64,000 nt of DNA from Brachionus manjavacas (taxonomy: Eukaryota; Rotifera; Eurotatoria; Ploima; Brachionidae): contig JAHQIY010000004.1 in assembly GCA_019054805.1 (NCBI GenBank), positions 4,836,001 to 4,900,000 on the forward strand. Reading direction: 5' to 3'. Below, one piece after another: positions 4,362 to 54,569 of this stretch. The position numbers and the translations under genes were made by a program. Below the pieces are notes generated by a model. It saw only the letters and a program-made list of their open reading frames with translations, did not search any database and was not told the DNA's origin. Every line of letters begins with the position of its first letter. The stretch's first letter is position 1.

Positions 4362-7300
4362 ATGGCAGCTACAATAGCTTCTTCCACATCTTCCCAAAAC
4401 CGGCCCATATGTAAATCTAACATTAAATCAACAGCTTTAGATAGAAAAAATCCCATGCATACACATCCGAACATTCGCTCTGTAAATCAACTACCTTCTG
4501 TGTCTAAATCCAGCTTTGACTACAATCAGTACAAAACGGACAAGGCCCTCGAGTCAAACGAATCTCAGAAAACAAGACCGGTCTTTCGGAAAAATGACCT
4601 CGTATGGGCGAAATTAAAAAATCATCCGTGGTGGCCGTGCCGAATTCTGAACGAAATCATCAACAAAATAGGTATTCTAGTTTTGAGAATAATAAAAAAT
4701 TAAAATTTTCTCTTCTAATCAGGTGAGAATTACATTTATTTTGTTGAACTAATTGGAGCCAATTCGGAGAGAGACTGGGTTTCGGATAGCAACATTTTTA
4801 AATATGCTGGAATCGACTCATTCAAGACTTATGCTCAGGACCAGGTAGATAAGGCGACCAGTAAATCTGCCAAAGAAGAACTAGCCGAAAGGTTTCAATT
4901 GAAAATAGCTACGAACAAAAGGGAAGAATGGGACAGAGCAATCAAACAGGCGGATTTTATCCAAAATCAAGCGGGCAAGGCTCTAAATCTGAACAGAATT
5001 GAGAAAAGAAAAGTAGGAAATAAAAAAAAAATCTGAAATTAATTTTTTTAAGCGACCAAAGTTTAATTTCAAGGAAAAGACGGATTCAAATAGATTGAAC
5101 TTTAACAATGTACAAAATGATAATTTTCCAGTATTGCCTGTCATTGAGGTGAAAAAAATTATGAAATTAATTTTTTTTAATTTTTTTATTTTTTTTAGGA
5201 AAAAGTAAAAAAATCTAAACAAAATGAGAACAATTTTAGAGAAAAAATTGACTGTAACAACAATTATCTAAATTGTAAAAAATCCAAGACGCTTAGCGAT
5301 GAGGAAAACAATTGTGAGGAAGAAGAAGGAGAAGCAGAGGAAGAAAATGACCAGAATACAACGCTGACTAGTTTGCTCAATGAACAAAAACATTTGGTTG
5401 AACGACTGAACAAAAAACGGGTCCGTAAACCAAGACCAGAAGTTTGGACTTCCAACATTGTCAAGTCATGTGCTGAAAACGAGCTTAAATTAAAAATAAA
5501 ACTTAACAATATAGCAAAAAAGGATGAGGAAAATTTGTCTGAGGACGAATTTGAAGTTAGTCCTAGGCGAAGATCGAATAGCAATTCAACGACCAGCAGT
5601 CGATCTAGCTCGAGTAGCAGTAGTTCAAGTAGTAGTTGTAGTTCAAGTGATTCATCTAGTTGTAGCAGTTCAGATACGAATGAGCTTGAGAGCTTGCCCA
5701 AGATTAAAAAAAGCTTTTCTCCAGCATCGTCAACATGGTCTGATTACGAGCTTAACAACTCGATTCCCAGAAATCTTTCCGACTCTGTGGTCGAAAAAAT
5801 TAATTTAAAAAAACAAAATGCCAGAAAGTCAAGCGCATCGTTTTGTCTTTCGTCACCAACACCATCTTTGCCTACACCAATCAAACGAAAATCAAATTGT
5901 AAACAAGTGGCGCGCAAACGAAGTTCAAAATCTCTTTCGGAACAAACAACTATTGACAATTCTTTGTTTGACGAAAATAATCTGCTTTCTTCGGCACAAA
6001 ATTTCAACGAAAGTATAATATCCAACAGTGCCAATGGCAACACCAATCCAGAGACGTATTTAATCGACAGATACAAGTACGCTGTCCGGCACATCAAACA
6101 AGGTCTTAGCGTTGAAGAAGCGTGCAACAAGTACAGAATAAGCAAAGGCGCTTTGCTCAAGTGTCTCTCGGGCGGCACTGCGCCTAGAGGCAAAAAGACC
6201 AGACTCACCGAGTCCGAAGAGAATGAAATTGTGGAATGGCTGATTAGCTACAAGGACTTGAAGTACAACGATGCCATTCATCTGGTCTTTGAACAGGTTG
6301 CTCAAAAATTCGAACTGGCCCAAAGACCCAATCCGTTCAACAATGGAAAACCGAGCATGGATTGGTGGTATGACTTTTTGTCCAGGCATCCGCAGATAAT
6401 GGCATCTAAACCTGACTGGCTCAAGCGAGGCAAAGTAAATGATCAATACATTCGCGATGTTCAATCAGGACACCTAAAATGCACCAAGTTCAGACGAGCG
6501 CTTCTCTCCGCCATTCAGTACATTAAAAGCTTGAATGATCCGACTTCGGCTTCTATCCTTGAGTCGGTAACCGGCGGTGCCTCAAGCTTGCAGCCTAGTT
6601 GTTCCAATCAGGAGCCTAAAGCAAAAGTTAATCAGAAATCTGCACTAAACTCGCAAAAAATGGTCAAAGCCAAAGCTAGCAAGGCCAAAGCTGGGTCCGA
6701 AAAGAGCAAAAATAGCGATGAAAAAGTGTTTGTCGAAGCTCAAAATTTGGAAAGAAGATACAATAGCCCGCAAACAAATACTCAAAGAAACATGTATCCA
6801 AACATGGTGTTGAACAACAGTTGCATCAATGAATCAACTTACCAAGCCAACATTCACAACAGAAATAACAGCAATTGTTCGTCGACTACAGTGACAACAA
6901 ATAGCCTAGACTACAATGACGAAGATTTGTCTTCTGTTTCGCCAATATCTCTAATAAACTCCAATTTGGCCAAGCAAGATTTACACTCAATTGGCAAAAG
7001 TGAAAGTTTGTTCATTGATTCGAAGAGTTTTGGCAAAAGTGACAACGCATTCAGCCACTTTGTGAATGGACACGAGAATTTAAGTGACGAGGATGATGAC
7101 GAATGTCTGGACAATCTAGAGGACAATTTTGAAGATGACCCGAACGCCAATGTCACTTATCACACCGAAATATTCAGCCCTGAATTGGGCGACAATGATT
7201 TTGAGGATTTGATAGATCCAAACGATCTGATTAAAAAAGATCTAAATGTTCACTCGTCAAACATGGACCAAAGCGGTTTTATCAATCAGCAATTTTTTCA

Positions 7301-7622
7301 GGAAGCAAAATACTCGAATGACATGATGTTCAACATGAGATACCAGGACTCAGGTCACAATATGGACCCGGACTCGTTCATAAACATAAGACAACAGCCG
7401 ATTGGTTACGACAGCCAGTTTCTTGGCATGGAATCAATTACTTCCGACATTCTCGGTGACAGAGCCACTTATACAAACTTGTACCACAATAACCTCAATT
7501 ATACAGAGCAAAATTTGCTAGTGCGACATGATAATGATTCAATTGATGACAATCATAGACTAATTCACGGAGAAGGACCTCTCATCTGTGATACCATGTA
7601 TCCGTCCGCCTATTTGAACTAA
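4362..7622 (+). CDS. PWWP-domain protein with pipsqueak/CENP-B type DNA-binding region
   Basis: Four exons are inferred: 4362-4671, 4723-5012, 5053-5148 and 5199-7622, giving about 1039 residues with all junctions in frame and introns of 40-51 bp. Residues about 78-165 form a PWWP domain (DLVWAKLKNHPWWPCR), a histone methyl-lysine and DNA reader. A serine-rich tract lies near residues 359-393. Residues about 517-680 carry a helix-turn-helix of pipsqueak type (VEEACNKYRISKGALL) and then a CENP-B/Tigger-type helix-turn-helix (WWYDFLSRHP). The C-terminal third is Asn/Asp-rich with acidic patches and an EIF..DxxDLIDPNDL motif shared with the gene at 38074-39414. No transposase DDE core is present, so this looks like a domesticated DNA-binding region in a nuclear chromatin or transcription factor. 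Targets are unknown. The fusion is visible only if the 50-bp introns are real. Confidence 0.8.
6057..6520 (+). repeat. DNA-binding module, near-identical inverted copy 1
   Basis: This segment matches 38655-39116 on the opposite strand. By direct reading, 6057-6419 differs at only three positions (6282, 6301 and 6395), with an unbroken identical stretch at 6057-6281. From 6420 on, similarity falls to roughly 87 percent. Outside the module the two genes cannot be aligned at DNA level. Confidence 0.9.
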
Positions 7623-14224: not shown

Positions 14225-16290
14225 AAGCTTTTTTGACTATAAGAAAGCAATGAGTAGTTTAACAGTAAGAACTCGCTGTCAAAAGCTCAAGCAAAAATAT
14301 AATCAACTTACATTTGAGTTAAAGACCTCTTTAAAAAAATTCTGGAATCAAAATTGGTTTGATTTTATCAAGAAGATGGGAAAAAAAACCCTTACAAGTA
14401 GACTTTTTTGGAAAAAAAATTAATAAATTTAGAACAAAAAAAGGATCAAATTTAATCCCAAATTTGTTTTCAAATGACAAGGGATTCAAAACTAATGAAG
14501 AAAAGGAAAATGCTTTGGAGAACTCTTATCTTTAATATTTAGTCCTAATACTGATTTAATTGATACAAAGAAAGATTTCAAAATACTTAATTCTAACTCT
14601 GAATTTTTTAGAAATTATGATCAGTGTAATTTTAATGATCCAATTTGCTCAAATAAATTAATAATGGCTTTAAAAAGATTGTAAAATGAAGCGGCATCAG
14701 GACGTGACCAAATACATAATTTAATGTTAAAAAATATTCCTAGAAATTCATCAATAGAAATCACAGAACTTTTTAATTTATCTCTCAGAGAAGGTAAGGT
14801 TCCGAAAGCGTGGAAAACTTCGAAAATTACAATGATTCAAAAAAAGCCCTCTAATTTACAAGATCCTTTAAATTATAGACAAATTAGTATAACAAGTTGC
14901 TTAGGGAAGTCACTGGAACGAATAGTTTATTCAAGATTATACAATTTTTTGGAACATAATTCACTCCTTATCAGGGATCAATATGGATTTAGAAAACACC
15001 GGCGAACATCAGATAATCTATTCTTTTTAATTCAAAAAATTTTGGAATCATTTAATAGAAAAAAAAAGAGTTTGTGGCCTTTTTTTGATATTTCTAAAGC
15101 CTTCAATAGGGTTTGGCATGAGGGTTTACTTTTTAAATTGATTAAAATGAATCTACCTCATTACTTGACTAACTGGATTAGATCCTTTTTAGATAGTAGG
15201 ACATTTAAGGTAAATGTGAATGACCACTTGAGCGACGAATATCAAATAACTGCAGGTGTTTCTCAAGGCTCAGTAATTAGTCCTCTTTTATTTTGTATAT
15301 ATATTAATGACATCCCAAAAAGAAACAAAACAAATAACGAATACTCTCTGCTTTTCGCAGATGATCTAGTTACATTCTTCATTCATAAGAAAAAGGGGAA
15401 CCTAGAAAATAAGATAAATAAATACATCAGCGAACTAGAACAATGGCTTATTAAATGGAAATAGATATCAGTTGAAAAGTCGTGTTCAATAGTTTTCTCT
15501 AGGTACAAAAAAGAGAGTGATAATCTCAACTTAAAAATTTATGGAAACGGAATAATGAACCAAAAAGAAATCAAGTTTCTTGGTATAAAATTTGATTCTA
15601 AATTAAATTTTAATATATTTGCAGACGAAATTAAAGAACGCTGCAACAAAGGCTAAATATAATTAAAATACTGTTAAATAAAAAATGGGGTCTCATTCAA
15701 AACACACTAGGAAATTTAAATAAATCTTTAGTCGGATCTATTTTAGACTATTCTTTTCCTTGCTTGAATTCATTTTCTGAAAATAATATCAAAAAACTAC
15801 AAGCAATTCAGAATTCAGCAGTAAGATCTATCCTTAAGTTATAATATGATACTCCCTCCAACATCGTGCAACATGAACCTTTAAAAAACTTAAATTACTA
15901 ACAGTCTCAAATTCAGCTTTTTGAGTTGAGTGAGAGATATGTTGGGACAGGACTGAGTCATTCTTTTCCATTGGTTGTAAGACTGGTGGAGGAATGCAAA
16001 GAAGGTTTCGAATCAAGATATATTGAATACCCAACTCCATTGTGTAATTGCTACCTTACTATTTCCTCTTTTTTTCCTGAAACCTGAACTCTGTAAACAT
16101 TTGCCACATGTAACAATCTATGTCTTCTAAACTTTCATTTTTTTTTAGCTTATTTACTTTATTTTGATTTTTTTAATCTCATTTTATTAACTTTAATTTT
16201 ATTTTTTATTTTGATTTTGATTTTTTTTTTAATTTGAAGGAAGGAGCCCTAGCTCGGTACAGAAAACAAATAAATAAAAAAATAAAATAA
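14225..16290 (+). mobile_element. LINE, nearly full reverse transcriptase, degenerate
   Basis: The part before the reverse transcriptase is visible with stops (near 14290-14420, FWKKIN and IPNLFSN). A continuous frame at 14724-15464 holds the fingers and palm: NYRQISITSCLGKSLERIV, FFDISKAFN (motif A), AGVSQGSVISPLLF and the catalytic LFADD. The frame stops at 15464; the thumb continues in other frames (EIKFLGIKFDSKLNF near 15570). A GGAAGGAGCCCTAGCTCGG segment and an A-rich tail at 16261-16290 end the element. Related 3' ends occur at 11320, 20833, 29460 and 61325, so this family was active several times here. Confidence 0.85.
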
Positions 16291-17420: not shown

Positions 17421-17589
17421 GCATTTACCAATTTTTCTGGAAGCTTATTTCAGTGCTTCGCCACTCGGCTTGGGAAGAAAGTCTTCTTATTCGGCTGTTT
17501 CTGGACAGTTCTGGCCTGAGTAGCTCACTTTGTCCTTTTCTTTCTGGACCCTTCTTAAGTAGAACTAGCCATTGAATGTCGTCAATTCA

Positions 17590-18455
17590 ATTCTGTGAAA
17601 AAAACTACTGTTAGTGCGAGAGGTATTCAATGGGGATTAACTTCAAAACTTGAAGACTTAGACTTTGCGGATGATCTGATGCTAATATCTAATACAGAAG
17701 CACATATGCATATGAAGACGCAAGACTTGGCGAACAACGCTAGACCAACCGGACTCGAAATAAATGGAGCCAAAACGAAAGTTATGTGCATAAACACCAA
17801 ATTGGATACCCCGATCATCATCGATGGTACACAAATCGAGTGTGTAAATGAGTTCACATACCTAGGTAGCACTATCAGCACAACGTTGGGAACACACAGA
17901 GACATTAAGAATAGACTTGCTAAAGCAAAGAGTGTCTTTGCTAGACTCCGACCAGCATGGAAATCAAAAAGCTACAGCAAGGAAACAAAGCTTAAGCTAT
18001 ACAACAGTGTAGTAAAAGCAACATTGATGTACGGAAGTGAATGTTGGGGGATGAGTGAATCTGATAGGAAAAGCCTTAACACCTTCCACACTGGAAGCCT
18101 GCGGAGGATTCTCGGGATACACTGGCCTGAGACATTGTCAAATGCTGAGCTTTACACAAGAACAAATTCAGAACCATTAAATCAATGCATTAAGAACAAT
18201 AGGCTGCGATGGCTCGGGCATGTACTTAGAATGAAAGATACACGGATACCAAAAAGGGCCCTTCAATGGACACCTCAAGGGCGACGTAAGGTAGGACGAC
18301 CAGCAGTAACATGGAGGTCAACAATCACGAAAAAGCTCATCGAAATGGGTATGACATGGGGAGAAGCAAGGGTAAAGGCAAAAGATCGACTTGAGTGGAA
18401 ATCAAAAGTAATGACCCTATGCTCCACAAGGAGTGAATAAGGAAAAAAAAAAAAA
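17590..18455 (+). mobile_element. LINE 3' half with continuous open frame, RTE-like
   Basis: An uninterrupted frame of 281 codons (17595-18440) starts inside the palm at LDFADDLMLIS, the catalytic motif. It continues with the thumb (FTYLGSTIS, LMYGSECWGMSE) and ends with RLRWLGHVLRM and GRRKVGRPAVTWR, a C-terminal signature of RTE-like animal LINEs. The 5' part is truncated and an A run follows directly at about 18443-18455. The lack of stops suggests a recent insertion. It is a different family from the other LINE pieces here. Confidence 0.85.
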
Positions 18456-20460: not shown

Positions 20461-20832
20461 AGTGGAATTTTTATTAAAATTTAAAATTTTTTTTAAATTG
20501 GTTTATTTTAATTTTTTATTTTACTTATTTGTAAATCTGTCCCAAGCCTTTGCTCACTCATAATAAAATAAAAAGACTAAACATAAAAAAATAAAAAATT
20601 AATTTTTAGCTTGAAATAATAGTTTAACTAATTGATTAATTTTTGGGATTACTTATTTGAGGATTACTTGCCCGACAAAAAATTTATCGAATTATCTTTG
20701 TTTCTAGCGACACCCAGGTAAGTCAATTAGTGCTCAAATTAAGGTTAACTGTAATTTTTTGTTGCTTGTGATTAGCCATTCATCGGTATGAATAAGAAGC
20801 AGATAATTTTGCAAAATCAAATTGATTAATTC

Positions 20833-20900
20833 TAAATTATATCATGCCAATACTGACTCCGTTGTGTAATCGCCATCTTACTATTCGTTCTTTCTTTCCA
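20833..20900 (+). mobile_element. LINE 3' coding remnant
   Basis: CTCCGTTGTGTAATCGCCA and TCTTACTATT match the 3' coding end of the LINE at 14225-16290 (near 16030-16060). Only about 70 bp is left. Confidence 0.55.
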
Positions 20901-20969
20901 AAGCTAAAGACGTCTGGCGAAGTCTCTCTTTTGATTAAACTATGGTTTTTTAAAGTCAAAAACAACGAA

Positions 20970-21025
20970 TTAGGCAAAATGAGAAAAATGAGCAAAATGG
21001 GCAAAATGAGCAAAATGAGCCATAA
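20970..21025 (-). repeat. 9-bp tandem repeat, inverted partner (CAAAATGAG)n
   Basis: Five units of CAAAATGAG type (variants GAAAAATGA and GCAAAATGG). This is the reverse complement of the array at 19835-19985. The bordering sequence (AAAGTCAAA..AACGAA) also resembles the reverse complement of the border of that array, so the two may be arms of one inverted structure. Confidence 0.75.
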
Positions 21026-21622
21026 GAAATTGACATTCATATCGACAATACATGCAAAAGAGTGGTCGACTCAGCTGAATGTAGAAAAATGTAAAGTAGT
21101 TCATATTGGTAGCAATAATCCTGAGTTCGAGTACAAGATTGGTTTGAAGCCCCTGAGTAAGTCAAAATGCGAAAGAGATTTGGGTATTTACATACAGAAT
21201 AATTTAAAATGGGACACACAAGTTAAGAATGCAACAGCTAAAGCAAATAGAATGTTTGGTATAATTAGGAAAGCATTTAAGTATCCGTGCAGCGAGACTA
21301 TCAAGCTATTGTATTGTTCTATGGTTAGACCGCACCTGGAGTATGCTGTCAATGCATGGTGTCCATATTTGGAAAAGGATATAAATGAGCTTGAGAAGTT
21401 CAACGAAGAGCAACAAAATTGATTCCAGAACTGCGTGATTTGGATTATCAACAACGTTTGTCAAAGCTAGAGTTAACTAACCTGAGGACAAGAAGATTAA
21501 AGGGTGACTTAATCCAAATTTACAAAGTGGTAAATAATTACGAACAAATTGAATTTAAATAATCTTTAGAGTTATGCTTAGATAACCTCTTAGTTGCAGT
21601 TTAAACTACTACTACTACTACT
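21026..21622 (+). mobile_element. LINE 3' fragment ending in a (TAC)n microsatellite
   Basis: The frame reads LNVEKCKVVHIGSNN, CERDLGIYIQNNLKWD and MVRPHLEYAVNAWCPYL, the thumb and C-terminus of a CR1-like LINE. After a frame break near 21415 it continues with ELRDLDYQQRL and RRLKGDLIQIYK. It ends in ACTACTACTACTACTACT (about 21604-21622) rather than poly(A), as the LINE at 34986 also does. Confidence 0.8.
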
Positions 21623-34762: not shown

Positions 34763-34980
34763 GTCAAATTTAAAAAATAAAATAAAATTTTACCAAAAAT
34801 TAACATTGATCAGTTTATTTTAAATTGTTTGTTAAGCTTTTTGAATAGACAATTATTTTAAATATTTAAGTTTACTTTAGGCCCAAAATTTTTCTTACCG
34901 CTAATTTTAATAAAAAGACTCTAACCTTCACCTTACCCGAAACCCTAAACCAGGGCTCTGTCCTGGGCTCAGACGGGCTC
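34763..34980 (+). repeat. Short dispersed repeat, copy 1 of a direct pair
   Basis: It matches 37050-37266 in the same orientation: both contain TTAACATTGATCAGTTTATT, GCCCAAAATTTT and CTCTAACCTTCACCTTACCC, and end in GACGGGCT. The pair brackets the LINE at 34986-37045. Confidence 0.8.
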
Positions 34981-34985
34981 TAATT

Positions 34986-37045
34986 TGCATCTTATTTGGA
35001 AACAAGCGAATGTTACACCTTTATACAAAAAAGGAAAATAATCTAACGGGTGCCCAATAATGCTTGTCCGAAACTTCAATTAGAAAAAAACTTATGATCA
35101 GATAATGATAAAATTATGAAAATTTACAGTTTGATACAAAATTTTCTCTATTTTTGGAAAATAAAAATGGTTTTTTGAATTTTTTATTTTTTCGCATGCT
35201 CTATGCTCAGGTGCAACACATACCCTGACCCAAAATTGTCCTCGGTGGTCAAGATAATTCGAATAAAAGTATAGTAGAGAATTTAATCCTGATTAAAATG
35301 AACTATTGTTTGATATTTCAACGATTTTAATATGAAGCCTCTATATAAAGTATATCATTTTAAAAGCTAAGATGAAATGTTTTAAATATTCATCTTAGAA
35401 AGGGATCATACCTTTAATGTAAAAAAACTCTTGTAAAAGTGCTTTAAATAAAAAACGAATTTTAATTTAATAGCTAATTCTCTATTTATTTTGTGTGTAA
35501 AATTTAAGGTCATTGATAACATATTTGATATTTGAAAACTTTTATTCGAATTATTATTGATCACCGAGGACAATTTTGGGTCAGAGTATGTGTTGCACCT
35601 GAGCATAGAGCATGCGAAAAAATAAAAAATTCAAAAAACCATTTTTGTTTTCCAAAAATAGAGAAAATTTTGCATCAAACTGTAAATTTTCATAATTTTA
35701 TCATTTTCTGATCATAAGTTTTTTTCTAATTGAAGTTTCGGACAAGCATTATAGGGCACCCGTTATTAGCAATAAATTACCGACCCGTTTCGTTGACGTG
35801 TTCTCTTTGTAAAATACTGAAGAGTTTAATAAAGCATAAGATTTTGAGCCATTAATAAGTCACAATTTATTAGAGGATTCGGATCACGGTTTCATGCCAA
35901 GAAAACCATGCACAACAAATATATTAGAATCATTTGATTTTATTTCGCAAGCTCTGGCTAAAGGTCAATCCGTAGACGTGATTTTTGCCGATTTTTCTAA
36001 AGCGTTCGCCAAGGTCTCTCATCGGTTTTAATCTATAAGCTCAGGGCTTATGGATTTATGGGTCGAATTTTGGATTGGATAGCTGAGTTTCTCTCAAATA
36101 CAAAGCAAAGAGTTGTTATGGGAAAATCTATTTCTGAGTGATTGACTGGAAATAGTGGAGTTCCCCAGGATTCGGTCCTTGGTCCTCTGTTATTTAAAGC
36201 TTTCATAAATAATTTGTCATCGAAATTGAACAACATATGCTGATGATACCAAGGTTTTATCGGCTATTAGATCCATTGATGACAATCTCTCGCTTCAACA
36301 TGATCTTGATTTTATTTCTAGTTTGTCAATCACTTGGTCATTAGATCTTAATGTTGAAAAATTATTTTCAATAAGCAGGGAACGTGTCCATTAAGTTAAG
36401 TGATTTGAAAAGGAGAAATCAGGTCAGGTACTGTGCAAATCGTGGAATTCGGATTTTGGGTATGATGGTCAAAACCTTCAAAACTCTAAATATAAGCATT
36501 TTAAGATTGCTTTTCGCTGCTTGTTAGACCGCATCTAGAATTCGTCGTTAGTTCGTGGTGTCCGTATTTAAAGGAGGACGTATGCTATGTGGAGAAAGTT
36601 CAAAGGAAGGCAACGAAGAGTTTAATATCTATCAGAGATTTGGATTATCAGACCAGATTGATGCTGTTAAACTTGTCGCAATAGAGACTAGATGAATTAG
36701 AGGTGACTTAATACAAGTCTTAAAGATCTTGAATATATATGAGACTATTGAATTGTGTAACTTAAATTTATCCTCAGTCAATCAAGTATACAATTTGAGA
36801 AGACAGAATAAAATCTTAATTAAATAAAATTTTAAGAATTGTTTGCAGCGTCACAATTTTTTAACTAATAGAATTGTGAATGTGTGGAATGCACTGCCTC
36901 AAAATGCGATCGATGCTTCTTCGATTAATTGTTTCAAAGCGAGAATTGATGACTGGATGATAAATCAAGGTTCAGAAAAGCTCAAGTTACTGACATAGCT
37001 ATTATATAGCTTAACCCTGTGTGGCTCTCAGTGTACAACTACTAC
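34986..37045 (+). mobile_element. CR1-like LINE remnant, interrupted by a MITE, ending in (TAC)n
   Basis: The reverse transcriptase is visible in pieces: LIWKQANVTPLYKKG before the MITE, then NYRPVSLTC-like sequence, VIFADFSKAF (motif A near 35980), AYGFMGRILDWIAEFLS, SGVPQDSVLGPLLF and YADDTKVLS (catalytic motif near 36240). The C-terminal RPHLEFVVSSWCPYL (36530), IRGDLIQVLKI and VWNALPQNAIDA (36880) follow. Several stops and frame changes make it dead. It ends with ACTACTACTACTA (37037-37050). Confidence 0.85.
35046..35763. mobile_element. Palindromic MITE with 225-bp arms and TA target duplication
   Basis: The left arm 35046-35270 and right arm 35538-35763 are reverse complements with only about 7-8 differences. 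The termini read ACGGGTGCCC. TA flanks both sides (35044-35045 and 35764-35765), as for Tc1/mariner elements. Removing it restores the reading order of the surrounding LINE. The 267-bp spacer has no coding capacity. Confidence 0.9.
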
Positions 37046-37049
37046 TACT

Positions 37050-37266
37050 AAATTTGAAAAATAAAAAAAAATTTTACCATAAATTAACATTGATCAGTTT
37101 ATTTTAAATTTTTTGTTAAGCTTTTTGAATAGACAATTTTAAATATTTAAACTTATTTTAGGCCCAAAATTTTCCTTACGGCTAATTTTTGAAATTTAGG
37201 CTCTAACCTTCACCTTACCCGAAATCCTCTGAAATACAGAACTCTGTCGCGGGCCCCGACGGGCTA
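37050..37266 (+). repeat. Short dispersed repeat, copy 2 of a direct pair
   Basis: This is the partner of 34763-34980 and begins immediately after the (TAC)n end of the LINE. A GC-rich end (CGCGGGCCCCGACGGGCT) stands out from the AT-rich background. Confidence 0.8.
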
Positions 37267-38073: not shown

Positions 38074-39414
38074 CTAAATATTTTCATCGTCATCATCACC
38101 AGGAACAAGCAAATGCTGGTAGAATCGCTGATTGTTAATAAAACTAAAGCAACTTTTTGAATCTAAAATGGGCGATGAACTTAAATTGTTGGTTATGATT
38201 GAATCGTTTTGATCGCATAAATCCGAATTCTCAAATCTAAAATTATTGCTTAGCATACGGTCCACTGGACAAAGATTGTCAAAATTCATATCATAAATAG
38301 CCGAGTCATATTCAAACTCTTCTTTAAACTCAGTATCCAAGAGCATGTTTTGATCAATAAAATCATTGATTCCATTATTGTCCAAATCTGAGTTGAATAT
38401 TTCAGTGATAAATGTTGGACTTTCGCCATTTGCTTCATTGTTCTCTACAGAATTGGCATCTTCACCATTAAAACTCTTCAAATTTTTATTTACCTCTTGA
38501 TTTGAGTTGGATTGTTTCAAAAGTCGCTTACTAGAACGTACTTTCTTCGATTTCGGTTCGACTGGATTTTTTTTTTGTGTTATTTGACTTGTGGGTTTTT
38601 CTGTACTGAATAAATCCGAATCCAAGGTTTGAATGCTTTCGTTCAAATCCCGGATGTACTGAATGGCAGAGAGAAGAGCTCGTCTAAACTTGGTGCATTT
38701 TAGTTGTCCGGATTGAACATCTCGGATGTATTGGTCATTCACTTTGCCTCTCATGATCCAGTCAGGTTTAGATGCCATTATTTGCGGATGCCTGGACAAA
38801 AAGTCATACCACCAATCCATGCTCGGTTTTCCATTGTTGAACGGATTGGGTCTTTGGGCCAGTTCGAATTTTTGAACAACCTGTTCAAAGACCAAATGAA
38901 TGGCATCGTTGTACTTCAAGTCCTTGTAGCTAATCAGCCATTCCACAATTTCATTCTCTTCGGACTCGGTGAGTCTGGTCTTTTTGCCTCTAGGCGCAGT
39001 GCCGCCCGAGAGACACTTGAGCAAAGCGCCTTTGCTTATTCTGTACTTGTTGCACGCTTCTTCAACGCTAAGACCTTGTTTGATGTGCCGGACAGCGTAC
39101 TTGTATCTGTCGATTAAATATGTCTCTGGAGAATGGTTCGTTTGATTTGGTAATTTCAACTCCGATGGAGACTTTTGGTCATCTTCAGAGTCATAGTTTG
39201 AATTTTGTGTTAGATCCAAATTGGGGCATTCGTTAAAATCGATGGGTTCTTTTTTAATATTAAGACCTGTTTCTGATTTAAAGTCAGTTTCTGTACAATT
39301 TTCGTCCAGATTCTCCAGACTGCTAAAACCACTTGATCTTCTTCTTGTCTTTGGTCTTAGTGCCATTCGGCTAAATCCAGATTTTTCTTTTGTTTTGCTT
39401 TGATTGTTTACCAT
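38074..39414 (-). CDS. Pipsqueak/CENP-B type DNA-binding protein, paralogue of the gene at 4362
   Basis: One open frame of 446 codons. Residues about 96-255 are the same pipsqueak plus CENP-B/Tigger type helix-turn-helix region as in the gene at 4362-7622 (VEEACNKYRISKGALL, WWYDFLSRHP), almost identical in DNA. There is no PWWP domain, serine tract or transposase core. Upstream of the module is a Lys/Arg-rich nuclear-localisation-like stretch (RPKTRRRSS) and NIKKEPIDF, which contains a SUMO-type IKKE site. The acidic C-terminus keeps a TEIF..D motif of the paralogue. A TTTGTAG acceptor-like site sits 3 bp before the ATG, so an untranslated first exon or a trans-splice site is possible. It faces RFC1 head to head across 431 bp. 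Function: sequence-specific DNA binding, inferred only. Confidence 0.8.
   Translation of the reverse strand: MVNNQSKTKEKSGFSRMALRPKTRRRSSGFSSLENLDENCTETDFKSETGLNIKKEPIDFNECPNLDLTQNSNYDSEDDQKSPSELKLPNQTNHSPETYLIDRYKYAVRHIKQGLSVEEACNKYRISKGALLKCLSGGTAPRGKKTRLTESEENEIVEWLISYKDLKYNDAIHLVFEQVVQKFELAQRPNPFNNGKPSMDWWYDFLSRHPQIMASKPDWIMRGKVNDQYIRDVQSGQLKCTKFRRALLSAIQYIRDLNESIQTLDSDLFSTEKPTSQITQKKNPVEPKSKKVRSSKRLLKQSNSNQEVNKNLKSFNGEDANSVENNEANGESPTFITEIFNSDLDNNGINDFIDQNMLLDTEFKEEFEYDSAIYDMNFDNLCPVDRMLSNNFRFENSDLCDQNDSIITNNLSSSPILDSKSCFSFINNQRFYQHLLVPGDDDDENI
38655..39116 (-). repeat. DNA-binding module, near-identical inverted copy 2
   Basis: Partner of 6057-6520 in opposite orientation. It shares an identical 225-bp core and has three differences in 363 bp; similarity drops on both sides. 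Confidence 0.9.
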
Positions 39415-39845
39415 TTCTACAAATAAATTTTTAATTTAATTTTTTTATTTTTTCGAATAATGAATTAAAATTTACATGAATGTTAAAAAGAAAACATGAT
39501 TTTAAAATTAAAAAACAAGTTAATCAAATTTTAAGTCTTTCGAAAAGATCACTCCATCCCAAAATCTTTTTTTAAACCCAAGCTTGGTACTTGTCCTACT
39601 AAATAGCTTCTAATTTTGGAATTCCTATTTTTGTATTTAGCTATTTTGTTCATCTGATTCTTATCATATTTTTATCTTTTTGTAAGCGACAACATTTAGT
39701 CACCACTTTCTCAGATCAATTTCAAAAATTGGCGCTCTTTCAAAATTTAAATGCAAGTAATTTAAGTGTCTATAAGTCTCTCTATATATGCATTTGGAAG
39801 AGTTAATTTTTGGTAATAATTCTATTTTATTTTCAAAACAAGAAA
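39415..39845. promoter_or_regulatory. Divergent intergenic region between the pipsqueak-type gene and RFC1
   Basis: It separates two oppositely directed start codons by 431 bp and must hold both promoters or share one. No TATA box is obvious. CAAAACAAG just before the RFC1 ATG is a good splice acceptor, so RFC1 may have an untranslated or trans-spliced leader. Confidence 0.5.
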
Positions 39846-43939: not shown

Positions 43940-45225
43940 TAATGAATTACTATCAGGAGTAACTGATGCTGGTAGAGAACGATTTTGAGTATTCGACACT
44001 TTTTAAAACTAGGCTGGGCGTCAGAAGGTGGTATAATGTCCCCTAAATTATTTTTAATTTACATCGACGATTTGCTAAAAGATATTGAGAACTGCCCATC
44101 CAGTCTAAAACTTGACAGCTCGACTAAGATTGATGTGATTGCATATGCGGATGACATCATTCTTATTAGCACTTCTAAATACGATCTTAAAAAACAAATA
44201 GACGTAGTTGAACGGTTCGGAGCTCGTAATGAAATTAGAGTTAATCCTGAGAAGACCATGTATATGGTATTTAATTCAAAAATTTATCGAAGTGCTGATG
44301 AGAGACGGTGTGATCTTTGGCAAGATGATCTACAATTGAATCGAACATCAATTAAATAAGTGAACTCCATAAAATATATTGGTGTCACACTCTCTGACGA
44401 TGATAAGAACTCAGAACATATCAATAAAAGAAAAAAGGCAGTTTATGCATCCTTGGCCAAATCAAATCAAATGGTTAGCGATATTGCACATCCAAACATA
44501 AAAGGGCAATTATATAAGACGTACTTGCGACCAATCTTATATTATGAACCACAATCTTGGTTCAACAGAAAAACTAAAAATTAAACAAATAGAGGGTAAC
44601 GTCATTAAAAGCATACTTGGAATACCAAAAAGATGCAGAACAATTAAGTTGCTTCTGGTGCTTAACTTAGAGCCAACCATTATTCGACTCGACACTTTAA
44701 AATGTGATTTCTTTCAGAGACTCATCCGAAATACCTACACCAGGGAAATATTAAGAATCTTCGAAACAATTGAAGTCAATCAAAGTTTTATTTCTGAAAT
44801 AGACGAATTAAAAAGCTTTGTAGGAAATGACAGCTCTTTGGAACTGAGTGAAGTTTGTAACGTATACAAATACAAACTAAATACTGACCTGAGGGCTTCA
44901 AAAGAAGATCATATAGTCCAGGAAATTAGAGATATATTTAGCCACATGAAAAGAGAGGAGATCCCAAAAATGCTCTTTGAGCTCACCAGATTTGCTCGAC
45001 AGAGCAACTAACTAAAAAACTCAATATTATATTTATTATATTTAATGTTTCTCCTTTTCTTTTTATTTTTAGAATTTAAAACAACTCTTCTGTTTTATCT
45101 TTTGCTTTTTTTTGTAAAAACTGAATATATTTCTATTTTTTTTTAACAACACGTGTTATTTTACAGCGTATCGATAGTGGCCCAACTGGTGGCCTCTGCT
45201 CAGTAAATAAACAATTAAATGAAAG
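43940..45225 (+). mobile_element. LINE 3' half, second family, with one stop and one frameshift
   Basis: The frame from 43985 contains SEGGIMSPKLFLIYIDDLLK and the catalytic AYADDIILIS. It hits an in-frame TAA at 44357-44359 and continues in the same frame as VNSIKYIGVTLSDDD to LRPILYYEPQSWF. It shifts frame near 44550-44580 and runs on (IKQIEGNVIKSILGIPKRCR) to a stop at 45011. The C-terminal extension is unlike that of the other LINE families here. A 3' untranslated part ends near AAATAAACAATTAAATGAAA at about 45225. Only two lesions suggest a fairly young copy. Confidence 0.8.
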
Positions 45226-49917: not shown

Positions 49918-51049
49918 TTATTTTTTCGGTAAATATTTTTTCTCAGCTTCACTTAATTCTTTATCATTTTGTAAGCGAAACAATTCATTTACACTAGCAA
50001 TCTAGAATAAAATTAAATTATTTTAAAGTCTTGAAAAAATAAAAAGATTCACCTTTTTTTCTACATTTATCAAAGACATATCGTCAAAAATTTGTTTAGT
50101 AGTTTGTTGCATGGCTTGAACTGAAGCTCTAACATTATGGTTTGCCCAGATTATCATTGAGACTCCCAAATCTTCGAACATTTTGGTCGGAGTTTTATAA
50201 TATTTAGTCGGAACAATTATTACGGGTCCCTAAATAATATAAATTAAAAAAAAATCTTCCCAATTAACAAAAAAAAATATACCTGATTCTTCCATGCTTT
50301 CATGAAAGCCTCAATATCAGATGGATCGCTTTTCTTACTATGCATGAGAATAGCATCAGCTCCAGCATTTCTGTAAGCTTCGGCTCTTTTTAAGGCCTCG
50401 TCTAAACCCCATCCAGCAATGAAAGCTTCCACTCTGGCAACTACGCAAAAATCAGGATCCTGTTGGGTATCCTTCATAGCCTTAATTTTCAAAGAAAATT
50501 CTTCAATCTCTGCCAACGGCTGGACCCTGTTGTCCAACAAAGAATTAGTTTTTGGAAAAAGTTTGTCTTCAATGCAAGCTCCAGCGACATCTATTTGCTC
50601 AAGTTTTCTGACTAAACGGCGAGCATTGTTAAAATTTCCGTAACCAGTATCAGCATCTAACAAAATTGGAATGTTGGTGTTGTCACTCATGAATTCTAAA
50701 ACTTCTAAAACCTGAGTCCATGAAGCTTCATTTGAGTCTCTGACTCCAAGCTGGGCAGATATGCTCAAACCGCTGCCCCAAATTCCTTTAAATCCTGTTT
50801 CTTGAACTATTTTAGCACTGAGACCATTATGGGCTTCCATTATATATTCCAAATTTTTAGACTGGAGCATTTCTTTTAGCTGTGTTGACTTGAAGCAATT
50901 GATTATTTTTTGGCTATTTAAACCCAAGAAAAGCTTACTTTCTTTTTGGCATTTTGAGAAGCCACTTCCTGAGTAGAATACGCCAAAACTTGCGGATTAA
51001 ATCTAAAACTTGACTGTGGAATGGAGGCTCTAATTATCTGACCTAGCAT
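49918..51049 (-). CDS. PEPM: Phosphoenolpyruvate phosphomutase
   Basis: Four exons are inferred: 51049-50939, 50888-50283, 50229-50053 and 50001-49918, giving 325 residues, all junctions in frame. The enzyme interconverts phosphoenolpyruvate and phosphonopyruvate, the entry step of phosphonate (C-P) biosynthesis. Exon 1 ([17 protein letters not shown]) is basic and hydroxylated with no acid until late, like a mitochondrial transit peptide. The body matches the isocitrate-lyase superfamily enzyme known from mussel: [36 protein letters not shown], the metal-site [23 protein letters not shown] and [15 protein letters not shown]. The ATG at 50927 belongs to read-through of intron 1 and was rejected as the start. 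Phosphonopyruvate decarboxylase is not in the window. Confidence 0.93.
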
Positions 51050-51952: not shown

Positions 51953-54306
51953 TTATTCATCGTCTTGTTTGCCTCTTTTGATTATACGAACGAATGTTGC
52001 ATAATCCATATTGCCTTTGTTATCGATTGGAGCACCTTCAAGAACTTGGTTGAACTTGGAAAAAGTTAAAACGATTAGAATTAAAATAAATTCATAGTAA
52101 TTAATTAAAATTAATCTAAATAGAAATACATGCAATCAATTGATGCTTTAGTTCAATTAAATTTTATTTTTTGTTAACATTTTTTTACTATTAAGTGTTA
52201 GTAATGATTAATACACGATCATATCAGATCTCTTACTTCTTGATCGGTAAGTCGTTCATCTGGTTTGCCTTGGTGAACTAAAACTTCACGCAACCTTTTT
52301 AAGCACAAGGGAAAAAGCGTTTATTAAAAATAAATAAAAACAAGAATTTTTTTTCTCTGCATCCATTTTTTAGGGAAGAATTCGTCAAAATTAAAGGTAC
52401 TACTAGCTTTCAAAGTGATAAGCCAATTTTTACAGATAAGCTAATAATAAGACTAGAATATTTTTTTCTGTTATCTTACTTGTTGATCTGTTAGTCTTTC
52501 AGCTGGATTTCCTTGAGCTGTGAGAATTTCTCTTAACCTAACAAGATAATTCATTCAATTTTTATCAATAAAATAATTAAATAATTTTTTTTCAAATTGA
52601 TGACTTTTTTCTAAAAAAACTCAAGATAAAAATAAAAAAGCGAATGCTGTATCTTAATAAATGATTGTATTAAAATTGAAAATACTTACACATCACGGTG
52701 TAATATTCCTTTGGCATCAGCATCAAACAATTTGAAAGCATTCATGATATGTGATTCTTCATCAGTGCCTGTTTAATTTTAATTGGAACCAAAAAATAAA
52801 ATTAATTTTTTGAATAAAAGTAAGCTAGAATAAACTAAAAGGGTCGAAAAATACTGTTTAGGCTTGGTTAAGGGGTAAAAGGATTACATTATTTTGAAAT
52901 GCAAAGAGGGAATTCAAATTTTTGATTTAGGGTAATGGATGGATGCAATGAATTGATTCAACAGATTTAAAATAATTTTTTAATTTTTAATAACGTTTTG
53001 ACTTAAAAATCTGTTGTTTATTCTTTATCTAATAAATACTCACGCTTGGGAATTTATAATTCCAGATCCATTATCATCAAACAACTTAAAAGCATTCATG
53101 ATTACTGTTTCTTCATCAGTTCCTATTTGTCAAAAGGGTTCATTCATGGTTTAAAATAAAAATAAGGAGGGGAAAAGTTAAATATATTCATGCATTTCAG
53201 GCTCATCATGGCTTAATTTAAATCAATTGAGGTTTACCGTTTAGACGATCTCCGAATAAAGTCAATAACATTGTGAAGTTAATTGGTCCTTGGGCCTCCT
53301 CCACCATGGCTTTTAATTCAGCATCTTTTGGCATTCTGCCTAAAAAATCAAATTGAAAATTAAAATTATTTATTGTTTATTTTCTGATTAATTTCATTCA
53401 AAACAAAATTAAAAGTAATCAAAATCAATTGAAACATTTAATTCATCATTCATTAGATCATTCATGCAAGTTTTTCTGGTAAAAAAGGGAAGTTTTGTTT
53501 AACAGGTATTCTAGGAAATAGTTAAAAAGTGCATTGTCTTAGTATTATCATATCAGGGTTTGTGTAATTTGAAAAAAGTGAGCAAAGGTAAAAGGGGATG
53601 TCTAATTTGATGCCTTCAATTACCCAATGAATTGTAAACTTCTTTTAAATCATCGACACTGATTACTCCATCTCTGTCTTGATCCATAAGACCGAATGCC
53701 TTTAACAATCATTTTGATTAAAAAAAATGTATTGAAAAATAGAATTCGACTCGAAATTATGCCTATCTTGTACAATATACTTAATTAAATTTAGGCTTGT
53801 TGTTTTTAAGTTTTGTTTTTTTACAGATACACTTAATTTAAAATCAAAAAAAAATCAAAAATTAAAAAAAAAAACACTTCAAAATAAAGCTTATTCTTGT
53901 CTCAACTAACCTAGAGATGTGTAAATCTCTTTTAAATCATCAACACTTATAATTCCATCTCTGTCTTGGTCAAACATATTGAAAGCCTTTGGATAGTTTA
54001 GTTAAAAATTTATCGATTTTAAATCATTTTTTTCACAATAAAAAAGTAAAATAAAATCTTATAAATTTGTCTTGTTTTGTTTAATTTATTTTAAAATATT
54101 TCAATTCTTACCTCTTTGAATTCCTGAACTTGACTTTGTTCAAACATTGCAAATACATTGCTGGTAGCTCTTTGGGCTCTCTTCTTTCCTTTTTTCTATT
54201 ACAAAATTTAATTAAAAATAAAAAAATACAAAAAAGTTTTTCGAGCTGAACTGTCAGCCAAATTGAACCGAAAAACGATTTGAATCAGCAAACTTACATC
54301 GGCCAT
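51953..54306 (-). CDS. MRLC: Myosin regulatory light chain with three pairs of alternative exons
   Basis: Constant exons: 54306-54298, 54195-54112, 53339-53238 and 52054-51953. Alternative exons: 53986-53911 or 53699-53624; 53122-53044 or 52768-52690; 52537-52480 or 52294-52237. Any single choice per pair yields 169 residues, the normal length for this family. The N-terminus [15 protein letters not shown] contains the Thr-Ser site (T14/S15) phosphorylated by myosin light-chain kinase in smooth and non-muscle type chains. EF-hand 1 (DQDRDG) is canonical, while later EF-hands are degenerate, as usual. The end reads [19 protein letters not shown]. The protein binds the IQ neck of conventional myosin heavy chain and regulates contraction. 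A TATA box and an untranslated first exon are visible upstream. The isoform number (up to eight) is inferred from the sequence, not from transcripts. Confidence 0.93.
52237..52537 (-). other. Alternative exon pair 6a/6b of the myosin light chain
   Basis: Exon 6a (52537-52480) encodes [19 protein letters not shown]. Exon 6b (52294-52237) encodes [19 protein letters not shown]. Both are 58 bp and flanked by consensus splice sites. They code for the linker helix before the last EF-hand. Confidence 0.88.
52690..53122 (-). other. Alternative exon pair 5a/5b of the myosin light chain
   Basis: Exon 5a (53122-53044) encodes [20 protein letters not shown] and a short end. Exon 5b (52768-52690) encodes [20 protein letters not shown] and a different end (ILHRDV against IINSQA). 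Both are 79 bp. They start in phase 1, end in phase 2 and differ mainly in the third EF-hand loop. Confidence 0.88.
53624..53986 (-). other. Alternative exon pair 3a/3b of the myosin light chain (EF-hand 1)
   Basis: Exon 3a (53986-53911) encodes [18 protein letters not shown], then KEIYTSL. Exon 3b (53699-53624) encodes [18 protein letters not shown], then KEVYNSL. Each is 76 bp with good acceptor and donor sites and both keep the calcium loop. Because 76 is not a multiple of three, using both or neither breaks the frame. Confidence 0.88.
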
Positions 54307-54569
54307 TTCGAAATTCTGTTTCTAAATTAACGATGCTAAAGCAATTTGGATCTAAATACAAAATAAAATAAAATCTATTCAAGTCTATTCGTTTTATAGG
54401 ATATATGTTCATTATTAAAGAATATCATAACACAAATTCGTATCAAAATAAATTCAAATAGCAAACAGATAAATTCTAACCTGATTGAACGCTTATTAAA
54501 CTTAAAGCAAAAGCTAATCTTAAGAAAAAAAATAATAAAATTATGTTCGAAAGCTTGGCTTTTTATATA
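54307..54569 (-). promoter_or_regulatory. Promoter TATA box and untranslated first exon of the myosin light chain
   Basis: TATATAAAA on the minus strand (54569-54561) is a clear TATA box. About 80 bp downstream, CAATCAG/GTTAGAA at 54481/54480 is a donor and TTTGTATTTAG at 54352 an acceptor. This gives a 129-bp leader intron and a 45-base leader piece directly before the ATG at 54306. Confidence 0.65.

Follow-up and report, generated by a model that had tools for sequence, protein, structure and literature searches.

A complete myosin regulatory light chain (RLC) gene on the minus strand of the window, at 54306-51953, carries three internal exons as tandem pairs, and we put the chance that the pairs are used exclusively, one member per mRNA, at roughly four in five. 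The window is the whole stretch of DNA analyzed here, 64,000 nt at positions 4,836,001-4,900,000 of contig C4, with 28% G+C; genome-wide searches covered the assembly of 114,169,980 bases in 61 contigs. In the scheme we propose, the three internal exons, duplicated in tandem long ago, would now be picked one per pair, a single member of each being spliced into every mRNA, and most wrong products would be removed by decay.

Gene structure and identity

The gene has ten exons, with exons 3, 5, and 6 forming the pairs, and its product is 169 residues long. An earlier model-made reading of this DNA from its letters (the sequence-only reading) had proposed the exon coordinates, and all of them check, with every intron bounded by GT-AG. 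Its description of the splice sites as good stands for these borders, but by eye the acceptors of 3a, 3b, 5b, and 6b have poor pyrimidine tracts. The gene is laid out as follows.

54561..54569, minus strand: possible TATA box of the window copy, TATATAAAA, picked by eye
54298..54306, minus strand: exon 1, constant (MAD, start codon), 9 nt
54112..54195, minus strand: exon 2, constant (N-terminal extension, RATSNVF kinase motif), 84 nt
53911..53986, minus strand: exon 3a (EF-hand 1, version a), 76 nt
53624..53699, minus strand: exon 3b (EF-hand 1, version b), 76 nt
53238..53339, minus strand: exon 4, constant (EF-hand 2 region), 102 nt
53044..53122, minus strand: exon 5a (EF-hand 3, version a), 79 nt
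52690..52768, minus strand: exon 5b (EF-hand 3, version b), 79 nt
52480..52537, minus strand: exon 6a (EF3-EF4 linker, version a), 58 nt
52237..52294, minus strand: exon 6b (EF3-EF4 linker, version b), 58 nt
51953..52054, minus strand: exon 7, constant (EF-hand 4 region and stop), 102 nt including the stop

The best solved relatives of the product are MYL12B, smooth-muscle RLC, and MYL9, which bears out its identification as an RLC. Isoform aaa matches MYL12B over residues 4-168 (E 4.4e-57) and the scallop RLC 1b7t_Y at E 4.7e-35; identity to the scallop striated RLC, as aligned, is 41%. By sequence, the gene is of the smooth/non-muscle RLC type, and it is probably an RLC gene of muscle, in a small animal with an AT-rich genome.

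The exon pairs are old and appear to be constrained

As had been noted from the sequence, partners share length and phase: the pairs measure 76/76, 79/79, and 58/58 nt, each 1 modulo 3. Partner identity at the nucleotide level is 57/76 for pair 3, 55/79 for pair 5, and 39/58 for pair 6 (67-75%), a level reached by none of 20,000 shuffles for any of the three pairs. Pooled over the pairs, partners differ by a dN of 0.24 and a dS of 1.34 (NG86; dN/dS about 0.18), or 0.21 and 3.5 with a maximum-likelihood (ML) method. With the pooled dN this far below the pooled dS, the duplications are old and the partners look constrained, both members apparently having been kept by selection. Pair by pair, the NG86 values of dN and dS are 0.17 and 2.00 (pair 3), 0.30 and 0.79 (pair 5), and 0.27 and 1.92 (pair 6), dN being the smaller in all three as a plain comparison without a significance test, and constraint looks least clear for pair 5.

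A window-wide scan for pairs of open segments that resemble each other and lie under 1.5 kb apart on the same strand (at least 15 aa, E <=1e-5, low-complexity filter on) returned five rows, namely the three exon pairs, an antisense echo of pair 5, and an internal repeat near 48.2-48.7 kb. We also compared public collections, which by their descriptions hold viruses and prokaryotes. The viral collection gave nine pattern matches, only two of which encode a relative (both 45% over 33 residues), and none of the 48 pattern matches in the prokaryotic collection encodes one.

The alternatives replace parts of EF-hand 1, EF-hand 3, and the EF3-EF4 linker, in agreement with the sequence-only reading, and 23 of the 169 residues differ between set a and set b. 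RATSNVF lies within constant exon 2, placing the kinase site in the constant part as that reading had it, and the EF-hand 1 motif DQDRDG (D-x-D-x-D-G) is kept in both 3a and 3b of the window copy. The exon 5 choice alters 9 of the 11 residues at 107-117, the EF-hand 3 loop. Exon 6 covers the linker including Gly126, which is aligned with the glycine at scallop residue 117 and is followed by a three-residue insertion that 6a and 6b have in common and that is absent from the scallop chain and from two further RLC genes of this genome (L006 and L007). Regulation of scallop myosin reportedly depends on a single RLC glycine, according to the title of a paper; we take this to be scallop residue 117, which presumably contacts the essential light chain. 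As read from the predicted proteins, pair choice thus spares the metal ligands of EF-hand 1 as well as the phosphorylation site, and changes the EF-hand 1 flanks, the EF-hand 3 loop, and the EF3-EF4 linker.

The reading frame filters splicing products

With one member taken from each pair, all eight combinations translate into 169 residues free of inner stops, as the sequence-only reading had predicted. It was equally right that taking both or neither member breaks the frame: all six error types shift the frame and meet a stop. With set a used elsewhere, that stop lies 265 nt (both members of pair 3), 212 nt (neither of pair 3), 130 nt (both of pair 5), 53 nt (neither of pair 5), or 49 nt (both of pair 6) before the last exon junction, and with neither member of pair 6 it falls inside the last exon. 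Nonsense-mediated decay should degrade the first three of these products and spare the last, with the other two being borderline cases. For pair 6 the frame shift filters only weakly, since skipping both members leaves the stop in the last exon. The frame lock is therefore a filter on products, and it leaves the choice made by the spliceosome unexplained. The earlier suggestion that the structure itself enforces exclusivity thus goes too far, since all that the frame does is spoil wrong products, with little effect for pair 6. By the criteria in PMC5740500, exclusive exons are recognized by junction reads running from each member past the other, with no reads joining the two members except where joining shifts the frame.

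How could exclusivity be achieved? Docking and selector sequences that pair within the pre-mRNA are one mechanism of mutually exclusive splicing. Of the nine intron duplexes that we tested, none was convincing: they were no stronger than those of shuffled sequences (z from -1.65 to +1.78), and 8 of 100 shuffles did as well as the best of them, between introns 4-5a and 5a-5b. PMC5740500 also names splice-site incompatibility and branch-point proximity as mechanisms. Here, site types and spacings lend no support to U12 sites, steric closeness, or distant branch points: all splice sites are GT-AG, the introns within the pairs are 211, 275, and 185 nt long, and the AG-free stretches before acceptors span 42-77 nt. 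We therefore regard exclusivity through pre-mRNA pairing, splice-site closeness, or mixed U2/U12 sites as improbable. Because these mechanisms find no support, pair choice would more naturally be made by trans-acting factors.

Three copies of the gene share the layout

The last exon (33 residues, 100% identical) occurs at three places on contig C4, the window copy on the minus strand and the others at 4,814,559 and 4,828,733 on the plus strand. Two further gene copies thus lie at distances of 59 and 73 kb from the window copy, and the pairs recur intact in both of them (L004 and L005), where all six alternative exons have GT-AG borders. Exons 2 to 7 show only 0-2 differences each from the window copy. 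By Blast, the window copy is matched at 97.9% identity over 2280 columns in one case and at 98.5% over 2274 in the other; the matching stretch begins 11 nt ahead of exon 2 and ends 11 nt beyond the stop codon. Exon 1, compared by eye, reads ATGGCTGAT in L004 and L005, one synonymous change from the window copy.

We counted variability among the three copies on ungapped columns of a MAFFT alignment. Within the matching body, the core introns vary at 31/1527 columns and constant exons 2, 4, and 7 at 1/288, which is below the intron rate (p 0.027). The a exons vary at 3/213 columns (p 0.39 against introns) and the b exons at 1/213 (p 0.08), neither difference being significant, nor is that of the alternative exons pooled (p 0.09). 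Outside the body, 29/77 columns of intron 1 and 92/186 of the 3' flank vary; L004 resembles L005 in both, and the window copy is unlike either. From exon 6a to the stop, the window copy equals L005 in every ungapped column. Since the body is so sharply similar and intron 1 and the 3' flank are not, gene conversion of the body of an older paralogue would be the simplest reading for the window copy. The three copies look like concerted evolution preserving an alternative-splicing layout.

Three near-identical copies within about 75 kb of one contig could raise the suspicion that the exon pairs stem from an assembly error, or from haplotypes or gene copies that were merged. This is hardly credible, as partners are only 67-75% identical against 98% between gene copies, the same ordered pairs stand in each copy, and the outer flanks of the window copy differ. 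A second possibility is that only one member of each pair is used and its partner is a relic. It could draw on L005, where exon 3a (L005 2294-2369) carries G42E in the EF-hand 1 loop, at a glycine invariant in the five RLCs aligned; together with D93N in exon 5a (L005 3158-3236), this change may reflect relaxed constraint on set a in that copy. Yet the low dN relative to dS, the equal lengths, the open frames of the members, and the splice sites intact in three copies make relics a very improbable explanation of the pairs. In L004, we also observed I112T in exon 5b.

The sequence-only reading stated that combinatorial splicing would be refuted if the alternative exons came from another RLC gene; such a gene was sought and not found. 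The two further RLC genes have no tandem exon copies: L006 is uninterrupted, and L007 has one intron, at the exon 6/7 position. No supplier gene appeared among at least 64 matches at E <=1, of which the stronger ones were read one by one.

Fox motifs and a possible coordinated switch

Within the 1529 nt of the eight introns that follow exon 2, the hexamer TGCATG, which has a known role in muscle splicing, occurs three times.

53463..53468, minus strand: TGCATG in intron 3b-4, downstream of 3b
53189..53194, minus strand: TGCATG in intron 4-5a, upstream of 5a
52129..52134, minus strand: TGCATG in intron 6b-7, downstream of 6b

These three occurrences compare with 0.16 expected (none of 2000 shuffles reaches three) or with 0.22-0.24 when the remainder of the window sets the expectation (Poisson p 0.0018), for a motif picked by eye before testing with its splicing role already in mind, so that the test is post hoc. 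In an unbiased list, TGCATG ranks 14th of 777 hexamers by enrichment. We tried 13 patterns, and eight are reported; among these, TGCATG (together with its core, GCATG) and one ACTAAC are the only ones present. The TGCATG sites also occur in L004 and L005, copies too alike for the sharing to count as independent conservation.

According to PMC5840707, an upstream motif promotes skipping of an exon and a downstream motif its inclusion. By this position rule all three TGCATG motifs favor the b exons, a placement with a chance probability of about 0.18. A Fox protein would then activate 3b and 6b from the downstream motifs and repress 5a from the upstream one. The genome has a Fox homologue, on contig C3, whose RNA-binding domain is spread over two exons (96% over 25 residues and 77% over 35); it was missed by a worm-like query at E <=1e-6 and found by a fly-like one at E <=0.01. 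A shift of the RLC gene from set a to set b by a Fox-family protein is our preferred model of the choice, if on balance unlikely.

Motif positions thus qualify the proposal of up to eight isoforms. It holds as an upper bound, all eight combinations being open, and eight isoforms are possible; the motifs, however, hint at two coordinated sets, which we regard as plausible from the sequence. The rival to a coordinated switch is free, independent choice at the three pairs, giving all eight isoforms in varying mixtures. Apart from the motif positions, there is nothing to link pair 3 with pairs 5 and 6, whereas the common b-favoring direction of the three motifs weakly suggests coupling. Free choice is a real contender, though we would tentatively lean against it.

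Myosin heavy chains

The search for heavy chains gave at least 98 matches in many genes, and we analyzed a set of seven loci (L037-L040 and L042-L044), covering the within-locus parts. Our reading of their sequences is that all seven would encode muscle-type myosins. Binding to IQ2 of the heavy chain is a defining property of RLCs. A hook sequence of 25 residues is common to five of them (L037-L040 and L043), and its pattern was not matched in L042 or L044. An exon pair was found in one locus of the seven, L040, where the members are 102/102 nt long, identical at 78/102 positions, 115 nt apart, and frame-neutral.

TGCATG occurs six times in the seven loci against about five expected by our own arithmetic, and is thus not commoner than in the window. 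One occurrence lies 21 nt beyond the b-exon donor of L040, in the sole heavy-chain pair found; four are in coding sequence of L042 and L044, and one is near the start of L038. None was found in L037, L039, or L043. A wider and rather unlikely reading would have one Fox factor flip the RLC gene from aaa to bbb and the L040 loop-1/switch-1 exon from a to b, with gene conversion keeping the RLC copies alike. If this were true, the animal would adjust contraction through splicing of the light chain, with the docking site on the heavy chain kept constant, and gene conversion would keep three copies with different upstream regions nearly identical.

Several observations concern the arrangement of these genes. 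At least six heavy-chain genes stand in tandem at G000 C8:3794528-3878293, with the cluster-3-like exon pair in L040. At G000 C22:273465-302165, three genes for myosin motors score almost alike in the search, and one of the three is on the opposite strand. On contig C28, a tandem unit of about 41 bases (L046 233-1050) lies upstream of a myosin-motor gene.

Genomic surroundings

Other genes of the window encode RFC1, a SET/PWWP/AWS methyltransferase, and a kinesin-associated protein; 3' of the RLC gene, at 50244-50996 (minus strand), an enzyme of the PEP phosphomutase family is encoded (PF13714, E 6.5e-52). Scans with Rfam and for tRNAs gave nothing in the window. A spliced-leader pattern of rotifers had no match when either 0 or 3 mismatches were allowed. 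A 477-base inverted block with sharp ends, 96.6% identical, is found at 6047-6523 (plus strand) and 38654-39130 (minus strand). It is common to two otherwise different ORFs, 5199-7622 (plus) and 38074-39435 (minus), both of them without a Pfam match at E 0.001, and looks like gene conversion or domain copying. Shorter repeats include an inverted one of 228 bases (35044-35270 with 35538-35765; 96.5%) and a direct one of 219 bases (34766-34979 with 37050-37265; 86.3%). By eye, ORFs resembling pieces of non-LTR reverse transcriptases lie at 122-1042, 14685-15464, 17559-18440, 20826-21422, and 43976-45011.

Comparison with known systems

Exclusive exons are a classic source of muscle diversity in the invertebrate myosin heavy chain. 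An RLC with exclusive exons would place such diversity in the regulatory subunit. Given equal partner lengths and a constant phosphorylation site, eight proteins could be made and compared whose differences are confined to the exchanged parts, and one gene would then show the separate roles of EF-hand 1, of EF-hand 3, and of the linker next to the Gly117-aligned residue. Among the listed titles and abstract openings of open-licence papers, which for some searches were the top-ranked results, none describes an RLC gene with exclusive exons; this does not prove absence.

Published heavy-chain work describes Mhc genes standing in tandem in the limpet Lottia, where cluster-3 is the only cluster of Mhc5 and Mhc6 has four of them. 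The L040 pair fits the published cluster-3, which runs from the end of loop-1 to the end of switch-1, and an array gene with only a cluster-3 pair resembles the Lottia arrangement; this likeness hints that the animal may be a lophotrochozoan. The heavy-chain systems are like the RLC gene in having tandem duplicated internal exons in a muscle myosin, one expected per mRNA; they are unlike it in that here the regulatory light chain is diversified, through three frame-locked pairs.

For regulation, the closest parallel is that of RBFOX and exons 8/9 of FGFR2. In PMC2880598, UGCAUG in the preceding intron represses an exon and switches the choice, as we propose for exon 5a of the RLC gene, where, unlike FGFR2, the case is known from motif positions and a Fox homologue alone. 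Bivalve catch muscle likewise has more than one muscle RLC isoform per animal: a passage of PMC12040844 reports two, of which one carries a phosphorylation site, and mentions no mechanism based on exons, whereas here that site is constant and the variation lies elsewhere. Finally, human ACTN1 and ACTN4, as described in PMC9741552, likewise replace part of an EF-hand through exclusive, tandem duplicated exons; there, one version alone keeps calcium binding, while in the RLC gene the EF-hand 1 ligands are kept in both.
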